NCBI GenBank assembly: GCA_902574225.1
Contig: CACGMO010000001.1
Location: 62,001-126,000 of the forward strand
Reading direction: 5' to 3'
Source of the DNA: an uncultured Alphaproteobacteria bacterium
Lineage (GTDB): Bacteria > Pseudomonadota > Alphaproteobacteria > Rhodobacterales > Rhodobacteraceae
DNA: 64,000 nucleotides
How positions within the stretch are numbered: position 1 is the first letter of the stretch; every line of letters begins with the position of its first letter. The notes under the pieces were generated by a model. It ran no database searches. It was given only the letters and a program-made list of their open reading frames with translations, and had not been told where the DNA came from. The translations under genes were made by a program, and so were the position numbers. Shown here in pieces: positions 33,007 to 38,821 of this stretch.

Positions 33007-33091
33007 GCGGGTGTGGCGAAATTGGTAGACGCACCAGATTTAGGTTCTGGCGCCTTAGGGCGTGTAGGTTCAAGTCCTATCACCCGCACCA
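33007..33091 (+). tRNA. tRNA-Leu (anticodon UAG), CCA encoded
   Basis: GCGGGTG...CACCCGC acceptor stem, anticodon arm CCAGA-TTTAGGT-TCTGG, long variable arm, GGTTCAAGTCC T-arm, ACCA end. Confidence 0.95.
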
Positions 33092-33208: not shown

Positions 33209-33616
33209 ATGGCTGATATTGCAAAAGGGAACGTTAGTATTATCATTACGATGAAAGCACCGACAGAGGAAGGAGCAGAGGTTTGCAGAAATTTTCTAGA
33301 AGGACATCGTGAAATGATGGAAACAAAAAGTCATCGGACTGGAGACTTTGAGTTAATAAAATATTTTTCTTCTGAAGGACCGGAATACATTGATGAAGGA
33401 GAAAGTCAACTGGAATGGTATGAAGGAAGATGCCCCAAAAAGACAGGGAGAACTATATTTATAGTTACTGAAATATATAAGAAAAAAGAAGGTCTGTTTA
33501 ACCACTTTATAGAGACCAAAGAATTGGCTGATGCTGGCAAGTCGATAATGGAGCTTCACAACATAGAGTATAACCAAATTTGTATGACTGAAGTCAAACA
33601 TACGCTATGGAATTAA
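33209..33616 (+). CDS. Uncharacterised small protein, possible dimeric alpha/beta-barrel fold
   Basis: Strong SD AGGAGG 9 nt upstream of ATG; MADIAKGNVSIIITMKAPTEEGAEVC..., inferred beta-alpha-beta-beta-alpha-beta pattern. Confidence 0.8.
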   Translation: MADIAKGNVSIIITMKAPTEEGAEVCRNFLEGHREMMETKSHRTGDFELIKYFSSEGPEYIDEGESQLEWYEGRCPKKTGRTIFIVTEIYKKKEGLFNHFIETKELADAGKSIMELHNIEYNQICMTEVKHTLWN

Positions 33617-33627
33617 TATAAAACTGA

Positions 33628-33660
33628 CCCATCTGCTGCACACTCCAAGAACATACTACA
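33628..33660. repeat. Dispersed intergenic motif, copy 1
   Basis: CCCATCTGCTGCACACTCCAAGAACATACTACA, near-identical to 34708-34740. Confidence 0.8.
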
Positions 33661-33707
33661 TGAGTTCGCCAAGTAATCCTGCTTAGAGGAAGACGTGTTT
33701 ATGAATC

Positions 33708-33736
33708 TTGACAAATTGGAAAGTTCATTTTATGAA
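33708..33736 (+). promoter_or_regulatory. Sigma70-type promoter for the alpha/beta hydrolase gene, with overlapping palindrome
   Basis: TTGACA-N17-TATGAA; AGTTCA-tttta-TGAACT (33722-33738) overlaps the -10. Confidence 0.6.
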
Positions 33737-33777
33737 CTAAGACACTGTCAAATTTATTGTTAAGATACATCAAGATA

Positions 33778-34626
33778 ATGTCTGAATACCTGATTGATTC
33801 AAATGGCTCTAAAGTTGAGTTTCACTATGAAGACGCAAAAGCTAGCGAAACCTTACTTTTTCTACCTGGATCATACGCAAATAAAGCTGCTTGGAAAGGA
33901 ATTGCAAAAGCCTTGAAAATTCCTTGCAATAAAGTTTTTACCAGTTTGAGAGGATATGGTAATACCGAAGAGACCAGATCGGTTAACGACTATAAAATTG
34001 ACCATCAACTTGAAATAATAAGAACGATATCAAAAAAATTAAGTTCGAATTTTCATATTGTAGGTCACTCTATGGGAGGGCTAGTTGGTTTTGCTGCAGT
34101 TTTTTCAGGAGAATTTCCAATCAAAAGCATCATTACATTTGAAGGCAACCCTCCTTGGGTTCTAGATACCTCTAAATATAAAGAAACTTTAAATAAAACT
34201 TTGAAAATGGCAACGTACTTTCAAAAGGCAGTTATAGAAGATAAAAAAGATTCAGCTAAAATTATAATAGATTTTTATGGAGGAGATGGCACTTTTTCTT
34301 CTTTTCCAGAAAAGCTTCAAGATTTCTGTAGAGCTAACGCTCACGTCAATTTACTTGATTGGCTGCCAATAATTAGGTCTGATCCACCTAAATTTGAGAG
34401 ATCTCTTTTTAAAGCTTCTTTGAATGAAATGCCTGTGAAGCTGGTTGTTGGGCAAAATGCAAACTTTCTTATCAAAGACATAAATAATGAGCTCTGTTTA
34501 TTATTTAAAAAGCATGTTGAGCAGGAGATAAAGGGTGCAGGTCATTTTTTGATTTCTACTCATCCAAAAGATTGCGCTAATGCGATAGATGAATTTATAA
34601 TATCACAACGAATTGAGAACGATTAG
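33778..34626 (+). CDS. Alpha/beta hydrolase
   Basis: VGHSMGGLVGFAA nucleophile elbow; catalytic His context IKGAGHFLISTHP. Confidence 0.88.
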   Translation: MSEYLIDSNGSKVEFHYEDAKASETLLFLPGSYANKAAWKGIAKALKIPCNKVFTSLRGYGNTEETRSVNDYKIDHQLEIIRTISKKLSSNFHIVGHSMGGLVGFAAVFSGEFPIKSIITFEGNPPWVLDTSKYKETLNKTLKMATYFQKAVIEDKKDSAKIIIDFYGGDGTFSSFPEKLQDFCRANAHVNLLDWLPIIRSDPPKFERSLFKASLNEMPVKLVVGQNANFLIKDINNELCLLFKKHVEQEIKGAGHFLISTHPKDCANAIDEFIISQRIEND

Positions 34627-34707
34627 CGACTAGAAGAAAGAGTTAGTCTAATTAAAAACGTTTGAAAGCATCTCTCTATAGTTTTTACATTATTCAATTT
34701 TCAACAC

Positions 34708-34740
34708 CCCATCTACTGCACACTCCAAGAACATATTACC
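34708..34740. repeat. Dispersed intergenic motif, copy 2
   Basis: CCCATCTACTGCACACTCCAAGAACATATTACC. Confidence 0.8.
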
Positions 34741-34891
34741 TATGCCGCTCTAAGTCGCATTCGTGAACAAAGGCTTGATTATTTGTTATATCTAGGGTAT
34801 CGCTTTTTCATCAATCGAACATTTTTTTTATAAGTGCTAAAAGCAAAGGGTTTTAGGTGTAAATCTAGTTAAGTAAAAGGAGCAAATTAAA

Positions 34892-35194
34892 TTGAAAATG
34901 ACCAGCGTAATAGCTATCTCCCCAAAACAGGGTTCATCTGATGATGTGAAGCAATTAATCATAGATAGCCGATCAGAGGGGATAGCAGGTTTAGAAAAAT
35001 ATAGCATTATATTAACTAGAGAAGAGCAATTACTTGTTATTAATGAGTGGATTTCGCTGGATGCTTTTATGGATTACGTGAATGGTCCTCACAATATGAT
35101 TGAGTTAATCGAACATTTATGTGATCGATATGATGAAGAAAATGTTTGTAAAGCATACTCGGGAACGGTCATTCATGAGGAGCTAGCTGAGTAA
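34892..35194 (+). CDS. Small protein resembling antibiotic biosynthesis monooxygenase (ABM)-type domain
   Basis: TTG start (alternatively ATG 34898), SD AAAGGAG; MKMTSVIAISPKQGSSDDVKQLIIDSR...LLVINEWISLDAFMDYVNGPHNM. Confidence 0.75.
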   Translation: MKMTSVIAISPKQGSSDDVKQLIIDSRSEGIAGLEKYSIILTREEQLLVINEWISLDAFMDYVNGPHNMIELIEHLCDRYDEENVCKAYSGTVIHEELAE

Positions 35195-35339
35195 ATCATA
35201 AACTCGTTAAGTTGATTTCTTACAAATTAATCGAAAGTTCCTAAAAAGCGCACTATGTTATGAAGCTTAGCATTATTATGCTGTAACCGTGAAATTTAAT
35301 AATTTATAGAACAGGTTTTTGATTTATGGTGGTATCTAT

Positions 35340-36044
35340 ATGAAAATGATAGCTTTCGCAGTTCCAATCCTTGAAGGAAAATTAGATGATTGGACAAAAA
35401 TGATCCTTAATACAATGCTTGGAGATAATAAAAAGGCCACTGATCAAAGCAGAGAAAATGCTGGGGTGCATGAACGATCATATTTACAAAAAATGCCCAA
35501 AGGGCACGTTTGTATTCTTACCTGGGAAGGTGCAGACCCATTAACATTTTGGCTGGATTTAATGAACGTTGCTCTACCAGAATTTACTGAACATCTTGCT
35601 GATTTACATGGCAGAGGAATTTTTAACGAAGAAAACCCAGAAAAAATGTTGGCAAAATTAGTGTATGACAGTGGAAACGGAAAGGGTGATACCGAAGGAA
35701 CAGATCAGAAGAAATCTTTGATTGCAATTGCACTACCAATTTTGCCTGGAAAAATTGAAATTTGGAAAACAAAAATGCTTGAGCGGATGCTTGGAGATAA
35801 TAAAAAAGATGCTGATGCAATACGTCATGCAGTTGGGGTACGAGAACGTTTATACCTTCAGAAGGTGCCAGAGGGTCACATAGTGATTTTAACATTTGAA
35901 GGTATCAACCCAGAAGCTGGTTATTCGCAAATAATAAGGAATGCTTCTCCGGAGTTTGCCAAAGCTGTGCTGGAAATTCATGGTTTAGATGTAAATGCAG
36001 CGCAACCACCTTCACCTAAATTAGTGTACAATAGCCGTGAATAA
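35340..36044 (+). CDS. Uncharacterised protein with two tandem homologous ~115-aa domains
   Basis: MLGDNKKATDQSRENAGVHERSYLQKMPKGHVCILTWEG vs MLGDNKKDADAIRHAVGVRERLYLQKVPEGHIVILTFEG. Confidence 0.85.
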   Translation: MKMIAFAVPILEGKLDDWTKMILNTMLGDNKKATDQSRENAGVHERSYLQKMPKGHVCILTWEGADPLTFWLDLMNVALPEFTEHLADLHGRGIFNEENPEKMLAKLVYDSGNGKGDTEGTDQKKSLIAIALPILPGKIEIWKTKMLERMLGDNKKDADAIRHAVGVRERLYLQKVPEGHIVILTFEGINPEAGYSQIIRNASPEFAKAVLEIHGLDVNAAQPPSPKLVYNSRE

Positions 36045-36078
36045 ATAGGCTTAATATTCCAGAACAGAAGGCTCTTAT

Positions 36079-36477
36079 TCAAGAACTCTTTATTGAATGA
36101 TTAAAACCGAAAAAGTAGCTTTGAAAGGTTGCTCCCATTGGCTGAAGAGCTTCCTTCAAATCTGGTTTTGCATTGCCAAAAATGTGCCATCCTTTAAATT
36201 CAACGAGATCTGTAATTTCTGCTGCAATAGGGCTTGCGAGATGATTTTTTAGGCGTTGCATGTATCCGTCACTATCTACAAGTAGTTCTACTAATGTTGC
36301 TTCTTTTCCATCATCAGAGAAATGCCATTCGTAACTAATAAGTTTATCCTCATTTAAATCTAAAACATATTTCGATGATCGATTTTTAACCCAATCTTTT
36401 AGGTCATCAGGATTACCTTTTACATTAACCTGAATTACACTGCAAATTTGATCTGAGTTTTCTCTTAGTGCTGACAT
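36079..36477 (-). CDS. Putative quinol monooxygenase/ABM-like small protein (start may be 36507)
   Basis: MSALRENSDQICSVIQVNVKGNPDDLKDWVKNRSSKYVLDLNEDKLISYEWHFSDDGKEATLVELLVDSDGYMQRLKNH. Confidence 0.75.
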   Translation of the reverse strand: MSALRENSDQICSVIQVNVKGNPDDLKDWVKNRSSKYVLDLNEDKLISYEWHFSDDGKEATLVELLVDSDGYMQRLKNHLASPIAAEITDLVEFKGWHIFGNAKPDLKEALQPMGATFQSYFFGFNHSIKSS

Positions 36478-36634
36478 TTGCTTTCCATAATTTAATTTTA
36501 AGATCATAAATGATAGTTTTTCTCTGATAAATAAAATTCATCAATTACTCTCATAAGATAAAGCATTCACATCTGTCAATCAAACTGAAAAGATTAGCAA
36601 TTCAATAAAAAATTTTCATGAATGAGAAGCATAA

Positions 36635-36668
36635 CCCATCTTCTTCACACTCCGGGAATATAATAGGC
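36635..36668. repeat. Dispersed intergenic motif, diverged copy 3
   Basis: CCCATCTTCTTCACACTCCGGGAATATAATAGGC. Confidence 0.6.
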
Positions 36669-36814: not shown

Positions 36815-37091
36815 ATGTCATTTTTAAGATTGTTTATCTTTACTGCTTTATTTTCTGTTGTAGGTTCTTTTGTTTCTGCACAACCCGATAAAAAATGGTC
36901 AACTAAGCAATGTTGCGATTTATATAAAGCAATAGGGTTTTTCAAGGCTTTGCCCATAAACATTGGGAAAAAAGCGTGAGGAGAAGGGGGCTCTTTACGC
37001 TTCAGTTGCAGCGGACTACTCTACTGTCTATCAAACCGTCGGTGACGATTACGGTAAAAGACCTTTTTCTCTACACATCCTATTGATATAG
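36815..37091 (+). pseudogene. Small secreted protein ORF, apparently frameshifted at an A6 run
   Basis: SD GAAGGAGA; MSFLRLFIFTALFSVVGSFVSAQPDKKWSTKQCCDLYKAIGFFKALPINIGKKA* then the adjacent frame continues REEKGALYASVAADYSTVYQTVGDDYGKRPFSLHILLI*. Confidence 0.45.
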
Positions 37092-37248
37092 GAGGTTTCA
37101 ACCTACAGTGATACCGCATTAATGTTGATAAATGGTAGACCAAAAGTAGTTAATCTAGTAAGGATGAATCGGTAACATATTTTAAGCAGGCTGGAAACCG
37201 GTGTTTTACTATAAATACAAATACTTCTAATTATTTAAGGTGAGTGTA

Positions 37249-38404: not shown

Positions 38405-38821
38405 TTAAAGAGCGAAGTTTGTTCCAGTTTTTTTAGGAGCCATTCTAATTAGTCTTGATGTCTTCACTGCAATTTGTCTGTGTACCACGGCCTTTTGATA
38501 AGTCTTGTCTCTTTGCATTAATACAAACGACTCAGCAGTCGGATATTCAGCAATAAAGCATATATCCCATTTTTCATCACCTGGACCTATCAATCCAATT
38601 AACATGTCTCCTCTCCATACAATTGATCCTCCCAGTCTTTTAAAAACTGGTTCACTTTCTTTTCCATAACGCATGTATGCTTCAAAACCAGTTGTAATAA
38701 TGCCATCTGGGTAAATAGCTTCTTCTTTAAGCTTTATCAGGTTCAGCATATGCAAACGTCGACTATCTTTAATATTCTTAAAAGATTTATATGTATCCCT
38801 ATCAAATCCAACATATTCCAT
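38405..38821 (-). CDS. DUF1330-family small protein
   Basis: RRLHMLNLIKLKEEAIYPDG...GFEAYMRYGKESEPVFKRLGGSIVWRGD...AEYPTAESFVLMQRDKTYQKAVVHRQIAVKTSRLIRM. Confidence 0.78.
   Translation of the reverse strand: MEYVGFDRDTYKSFKNIKDSRRLHMLNLIKLKEEAIYPDGIITTGFEAYMRYGKESEPVFKRLGGSIVWRGDMLIGLIGPGDEKWDICFIAEYPTAESFVLMQRDKTYQKAVVHRQIAVKTSRLIRMAPKKTGTNFAL

Follow-up and report, generated by a model that had tools for sequence, protein, structure and literature searches.

A conserved ~70-bp sequence as the probable recombination site of small gene cassettes in a marine genus of Alphaproteobacteria

Chromosomal integrons and CALIN consist of small, mostly one-gene cassettes, and at each junction the tail of one cassette and the head of its successor together form the site; this site is nearly homogeneous in some genomes, arrays can lie without a nearby integrase, and cassettes are re-sorted at a fixed point between genes. 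Integrons have been reported to be absent from the Alphaproteobacteria (PMC9668308). In the Xer/pdif modules of Acinetobacter, modules between short conserved sites are re-sorted by tyrosine recombinases. Tycheposons and other marine tRNA-anchored islands combine a tRNA gene, a tyrosine recombinase and metabolic cargo with a duplicated tRNA 3' end at the border, and tandem site-specific islands with tRNA 3'-end repeats are known (PMC10872708). Tandem accretion of CIMEs and IMEs places several elements at one tRNA gene, some of them without an integrase of their own.

Here, we analyzed a stretch of 64,000 nucleotides (the window) from an uncultured alphaproteobacterium. The arrays of its genus share the features listed above and differ from each of these systems. 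Unlike integrons, they have no IntI match, no R/L boxes, no attC folding (R''/L''-L'/R') and no GTTRRRY at the exchange point; their sites are conserved on both sides of that point, their genes run in both directions, and they occur at several tRNA genes per genome. Unlike pdif modules, they have a site that is not dif-like (11-6-11) and instead spans about 70 bp with a stem-loop and a terminal arm, usually keeps one orientation per array, and sits in chromosomal tRNA islands rather than on plasmids. They differ from tycheposons, in a comparison drawn on the tRNA-plus-recombinase pattern alone (PMC10872708), in that a 33-bp core inside the island partitions the cargo into cassettes that can be re-sorted and the recombinase is of the DUF6538 type, and from CIMEs and IMEs in that the junctions are not copies of a tRNA end and the modules are as small as 0.2 to 1.6 kb. 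We found no description of such a system in the open literature, with most subscription papers falling outside that search.

The 33-bp motif studied here is very probably the core of a site at which small mobile gene cassettes are joined by recombination and re-sorted at a fixed point. By comparing sequences, we show fixed-length cassette families, free combination of flanks, what appears to be one exchange point, a single-cassette difference between two related arrays, hotspots at tRNA genes, and remnants of tRNA 3' ends that keep a nearly constant distance from terminal sites. The Alphaproteobacteria are reported to be integron free, yet a small-genome ocean lineage among them carries re-sortable cassette arrays, and single-gene gain and loss in streamlined marine genomes becomes directly testable through junctions and circles in metagenomes.

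The repeated core and the ~70-bp site

The motif has three copies, all on the + strand, at 33628, 34708, and 36635 of the window, and these are the only copies in the entire genome. The two described in the initial annotation as a near-identical pair (33628 to 33659 and 34708 to 34739; spacing, 1,080 bp) had 0 mismatches to the consensus, with 0 occurrences expected from 100 shuffles, and the copy at 36635, described as diverged, scored 41 bits against a profile built from the three copies. The statement that the motif occurs nowhere else in the window also held: the three copies reached 41 to 45 bits in the profile made from them, and the next-best place reached no more than 12. A genome-wide search allowing up to 3 mismatches returned the same three copies and none further (reversed-pattern control, 0). 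At 88% completeness, the genome (2.09 Mb) may lack further copies, the more so as contigs elsewhere in the genus break at the repeat; one contig of genome G002 terminates within the tRNA-remnant arm directly after a tRNA-Leu gene, indicating that assemblies break there. Outside the motif, the sequences of the copies are unrelated to each other, which refutes a single recent segmental duplication as their origin.

Copies were likewise present in relatives, namely, in 18 of the 22 genomes of the genus (reversed-pattern control, 0), with a maximum of 13 in one genome, and the motif was absent from 296 sampled genomes of other genera of the family, probably the Rhodobacteraceae. When 84,980 species genomes were scanned, those that matched strongly were marine single-cell genomes named "uncultured Alphaproteobacteria AG-..."; exact matches outside the genus scored at most 25, versus up to 58 inside it, and were taken as chance. 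A profile search over 40 loci (544 kb) yielded 142 copies, and 0 were found in shuffled sequence. Viral contigs gave 0 matches to the strict pattern; a looser pattern gave 5, each a single half-site-like place per contig, and these were rejected. No phage or plasmid DNA resembling the window region was found. The genus genomes are single-cell assemblies, most of them 58 to 91% complete, in which chimeras are possible, yet the same junctions recur in independent genomes.

The weak similarity first noticed downstream of the motif is real across the genus: in a profile over the 40 loci, the conserved stretch, counted from the beginning of the motif, spans about −6 to +65 (AAACACCCCATCTGCTGCACACTCCAAGAACATACTACGTG, followed by a stem-loop region). 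With high confidence, as part of the whole explanation, we interpret the motif as the conserved center of a ~70-bp site at which neighboring gene cassettes are recombined. The stem is formed by indices 34 to 46 paired with 52 to 72 and is supported by a comparison in which the two strands of one site paired better than strands taken from different sites (z = 4.0). A long attC-like palindrome was suggested by single folds and rejected against shuffles and noncognate arms, the complementarity of core and downstream arm being 11.3, compared with 11.5 for shuffled and 11.6 for noncognate sequences. Dyad symmetry about the core is weak, and a MITE/REP test detected no significant self-complementarity in the left arm, in the core, or between core and arm, with the stem-loop as the sole internal structure. 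At L154 (7343 to 7477), two facing sites 69 bp apart share one common right arm and form a near-perfect inverted repeat.

Of the four roles initially proposed for the motif, that of a recombination or insertion signature stood, in the form of cassette junctions with a fixed exchange point. An sRNA is disfavored by an Rfam search of the window, which gave no match to the element and matched the tRNA alone. A shared regulatory element or promoter does not fit the orientation of the genes, 39 of 98 of which point against the site in the modules checked, and a self-contained nonautonomous element does not fit a motif without terminal inverted repeats, at which each module end is half a site.

Cassettes and the exchange point

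The chromosomal anchor of the window array is tRNA-Leu(tag) (33007 to 33091, +; ARAGORN; Rfam tRNA, 57.7 bits), and the matching locus also carries arrays in G007 and G020. The first module, with a gene of 135 amino acids (aa) without a Pfam family (33209 to 33616, +), ends at site 1 (core, 33628 to 33659, +; putative exchange point, 33644^33645). Genes 91 to 96% identical to it adjoin sites in L132 (6151 to 6555) and L156 (7809 to 8213), and the left flank of its module is common to L156_8228. A complete cassette follows (33645 to 34724, +; 1,048 bp between cores), which contains an alpha/beta hydrolase gene (33778 to 34626, +; Pfam Abhydrolase_6, E = 4e−10; ~90% identical in L163 and L132) and leads to site 2 (core, 34708 to 34739, +; putative exchange point, 34724^34725); the hydrolase module recurs at 1,049 bp in L163 and at 1,051 bp in L132, each time with other neighbors on both sides. 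The next cassette holds a 100-aa ABM-like gene (34892 to 35194, +; weak Pfam ABM match, E = 0.01, under the cutoff), of which ~90% identical copies occur at 5 other loci; this cassette measures 478 to 480 bp in other genomes, and a putative decayed site lies at its expected end (35223 to 35255, +; aligned with four intact cassette ends). A duplicated-domain gene of 234 aa without a Pfam family (35340 to 36044, +; 86% identical to a gene in L150, 10710 to 11411) precedes a gene that points against site 3, the site at which its module ends (36079 to 36507, −; 87 to 89% identical in L150, L154, L165, L132, and L248). The core of site 3 is diverged (36635 to 36666, +; putative exchange point, 36651^36652), and its left flank is common to L150_10088 and L154_8867. 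Farther downstream are a frame-broken copy of the 79-aa gene of the 394-bp family (36815 to 37046, +; tblastn E = 3e−23, two frames), a second putative decayed site at the expected end of that cassette (37062 to 37093, +; aligned with five cassette ends), and a DUF1330-like gene, elsewhere a 749-bp cassette family (38405 to 38821, −; 80 to 94% identical in L237, L137, L152, L146, and L148), whose L146 homologue contains a detected DUF1330 domain. Array contigs of other genomes carry close relatives of every accessory gene tested between 33209 and 36507, and also of the broken gene at 36815 and of the gene at 38405. With two decayed junctions (~35223 and ~37062) visible where cassette lengths predict them, the window array looks partly decayed.

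In the loci studied, neighboring sites of one orientation enclose modules of fixed length with one or two genes each. There are 16 cassette families with 55 members, mostly constant in length to a few base pairs, among them a 394-bp family with the 79-aa gene (intact copies in L132, L146, and L155), a 470- to 474-bp family in which most copies have no listed gene, a 478- to 480-bp family with the 100-aa gene, the 749-bp family with the DUF1330-like gene, and a 1,449- to 1,467-bp family with a nucleotide-cyclase gene. Cassette sizes go down to 0.2 to 1.6 kb. The cargo is mostly metabolic or of unknown function (hydrolases, cytochrome b561, BioY, short-chain dehydrogenase, DUF1330, and class III cyclases), and one longer intersite interval contains a DNA methylase.

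When the 200 bp on each side of the sites were clustered, most of the 27 left-flank clusters with at least 2 members paired with several right clusters, and the reverse was also found. The same left flank thus meets different right flanks in different genomes, and vice versa; the left flank AATTTAGTTTTAT, for example, is joined to several different right sides. Among 25 site pairs with a common left flank, mismatches amounted to 5.5% per position up to core index 15, 36% at index 17, and 17.7% across indices 17 to 23, and 32 pairs with a common right flank showed 13.9% before and 8.5% at indices 17 to 23. These opposite trends point to exchange at CACACT^CC, which, mapped from few informative pairs and blurred in older ones because sites diverge, appears to be the single exchange point. 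The L146 and L152 arrays contain the same modules in the same order, except that L152 is without one 749-bp cassette. At the L152 junction, the left side is 96% identical to L146_819 and the right side best matches L146_1600 (65%, versus 40% for L146_819); as read from these alignments, the two arrays differ by the precise gain or loss of a single cassette.

In the mechanism that we propose, a cassette would begin with the right half-site (CCAAGAACATACTACGTG plus the stem-loop) and end with the left half-site (..ACACCCCATCTGCTGCACACT). A site-specific recombinase would exchange strands at CACACT^CC, so that the cassette could be released as a circle (a predicted intermediate) bearing a single complete site and then be inserted at any other site; after excision, its neighbors would be joined by one intact core.

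tRNA anchors and alternative explanations

Arrays often adjoin tRNA-Leu, tRNA-Ser, and tRNA-Thr genes, and several tRNA genes of one genome can carry them. At 14 terminal sites, the right flank is a common arm of 157 to 191 bp that ends, at the far border, in a duplicated tRNA 3' end in the same orientation as the site; the remnants measure 17 to 40 bp and up to about 60 bp, and L137 has a shorter one in addition to these 14. Such a duplication was not seen in the window itself. Genes of the DUF6538-type tyrosine recombinase clade described below lie beside tRNA-Thr, tRNA-Leu(tag), tRNA-Leu(caa), and tRNA-Leu(gag) in several genomes, and none was found beside a tRNA gene in the genome of the window. 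In L137 (5211 to 7158; G007), at the same tRNA-Leu(tag) hotspot as in the window, a broken recombinase gene is followed by a second tRNA 3' end with its native flank, both in inverted orientation, an arrangement that suggests site-specific inversion.

The position of arrays at tRNA genes and the duplicated 3' ends would also be produced by tandem accretion of small integrative elements, whose junctions would be attL/attR scars of one tRNA-targeting integrase. We consider this possible but doubtful, since internal junctions hold the core and not a tRNA end, which is confined to the terminal arm, and since modules move among arrays anchored at different tRNAs. Recombination of dif-like sites by XerC/XerD, as in Acinetobacter pdif modules, would draw on enzymes that are widespread in the genus, and the reverse strand of the core contains TATGTT, as in the XerD box. 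However, the core is not similar to CATAATATATATTATGTTATTT, the likely genus dif, the mapped exchange point falls on the wrong side of TATGTT, and G002 (90% complete) has both XerC and XerD and no full site that we could find, making this reading quite improbable. The likely dif sequence is located at G000:C3:83767-83788 and is identical in G000, G004, G007, and G016.

Arrays of one- or two-gene modules, with a homogeneous site in some genomes and with arrays that have no integrase nearby, are what a true integron would present, with IntI acting on attC sites and the motif as the attC core. This is exceedingly improbable: the array-side recombinases pass no integron-integrase model, the best NCBIfam match being 37 bits (cutoff, 220), the long palindrome that defines attC is absent, with core-arm complementarity equal to that of shuffled sequence, no GTTRRRY box is present at the exchange point (CACACT^CC; reverse strand, GG^AGTGTG), sequence is conserved on both sides of that point, 39 of 98 genes are reversed, and the host class is reported to be integron free (PMC9668308). 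The motif might instead be a regulatory or RNA element common to accessory genes, at which ordinary homologous recombination takes place; in the window, the next start codon follows the element at a distance of 97 to 158 bp, and its stem-loop would be in keeping with this. Exchanges at one point rather than spread across the repeat, genes facing both directions, an Rfam match limited to the tRNA, and the use of the same sequence to terminate modules render this explanation very improbable. Re-sorting of cassettes by site-specific exchange within the ~70-bp site remains the preferred reading.

A candidate recombinase and its relatives

One clade of the non-Xer tyrosine recombinases in the genus combines DUF6538 and Phage_integrase domains (378 to 392 aa when intact); in the recombinase tree, the 8 tabulated copies, array-side and related ones, fall into a single group. 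Four of these 8 lie within about 0.6 kb of a site, versus 0 of about 28 other recombinases; the distances are 251 bp in L146, 278 bp in L153, 243 bp in L152 (broken gene), and 0.6 kb in L137 (broken gene), and the remaining members are at least 2 kb from a site or have none nearby. The motifs GMRLxE and HSFRH and the terminal Tyr, characteristic of tyrosine recombinases, are conserved in the clade, which is present in 8 of 22 genomes of the genus, one of them (G012) without a detected site. The position beside arrays suggests that this clade is likely to be the cassette recombinase. No gene of the clade was found in the genome of the window, whose array may therefore be a relic or be served in trans. 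Serine recombinases, also considered, occur in 13 of 22 genomes; in G007 and G016 one copy is close to a site, but the pattern is not consistent, and these enzymes were set aside.

The broader proposal is one of integron-independent cassette capture, in which double-stranded ~70-bp sites would undergo one-point exchange by a tRNA-anchored recombinase of the DUF6538 type, shuffling the accessory genes of a marine alphaproteobacterial genus with streamlined genomes and perhaps also, through other sites, those of related genera; we see it as evenly poised between right and wrong. If the recombinase assignment is true, the shuffling of cassettes has evolved here around an enzyme and a site that differ from those of integrons, and the accessory gene content of uncultured bacteria of the surface ocean can be treated as a pool of cassettes whose ends are defined.

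Of the plasmid-borne relatives of the recombinase, the closest (49%) is encoded in Ruegeria sp. TM1040 and is likewise a DUF6538 protein. The ~220 bp that follow the recombinase gene are homologous to the ends of several cassettes (L146, 2563 to 2782; L152, 12380 to 12620; L148, 5964 to 6218; L170, 8371 to 8619; and L163, 2820 to 3032), which would fit an exchange of material between the recombinase region itself and the arrays. In another genus of the family, a related recombinase is present in 6 copies in the complete genome G066, in most cases next to a tRNA gene. A dispersed repeat of that genus's own has a sharply defined left border, with 43 copies in G066, 53 in G330, and others in G336 (positions include L283, 3231, 4841, 5318, 7243, and 9410; L279, 9665; L280, 14407; and L281, 17764). 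We kept this repeat out of the evidence because free flank combination could not be shown for it. Some of its right parts resemble remnants of IS6-type transposases.
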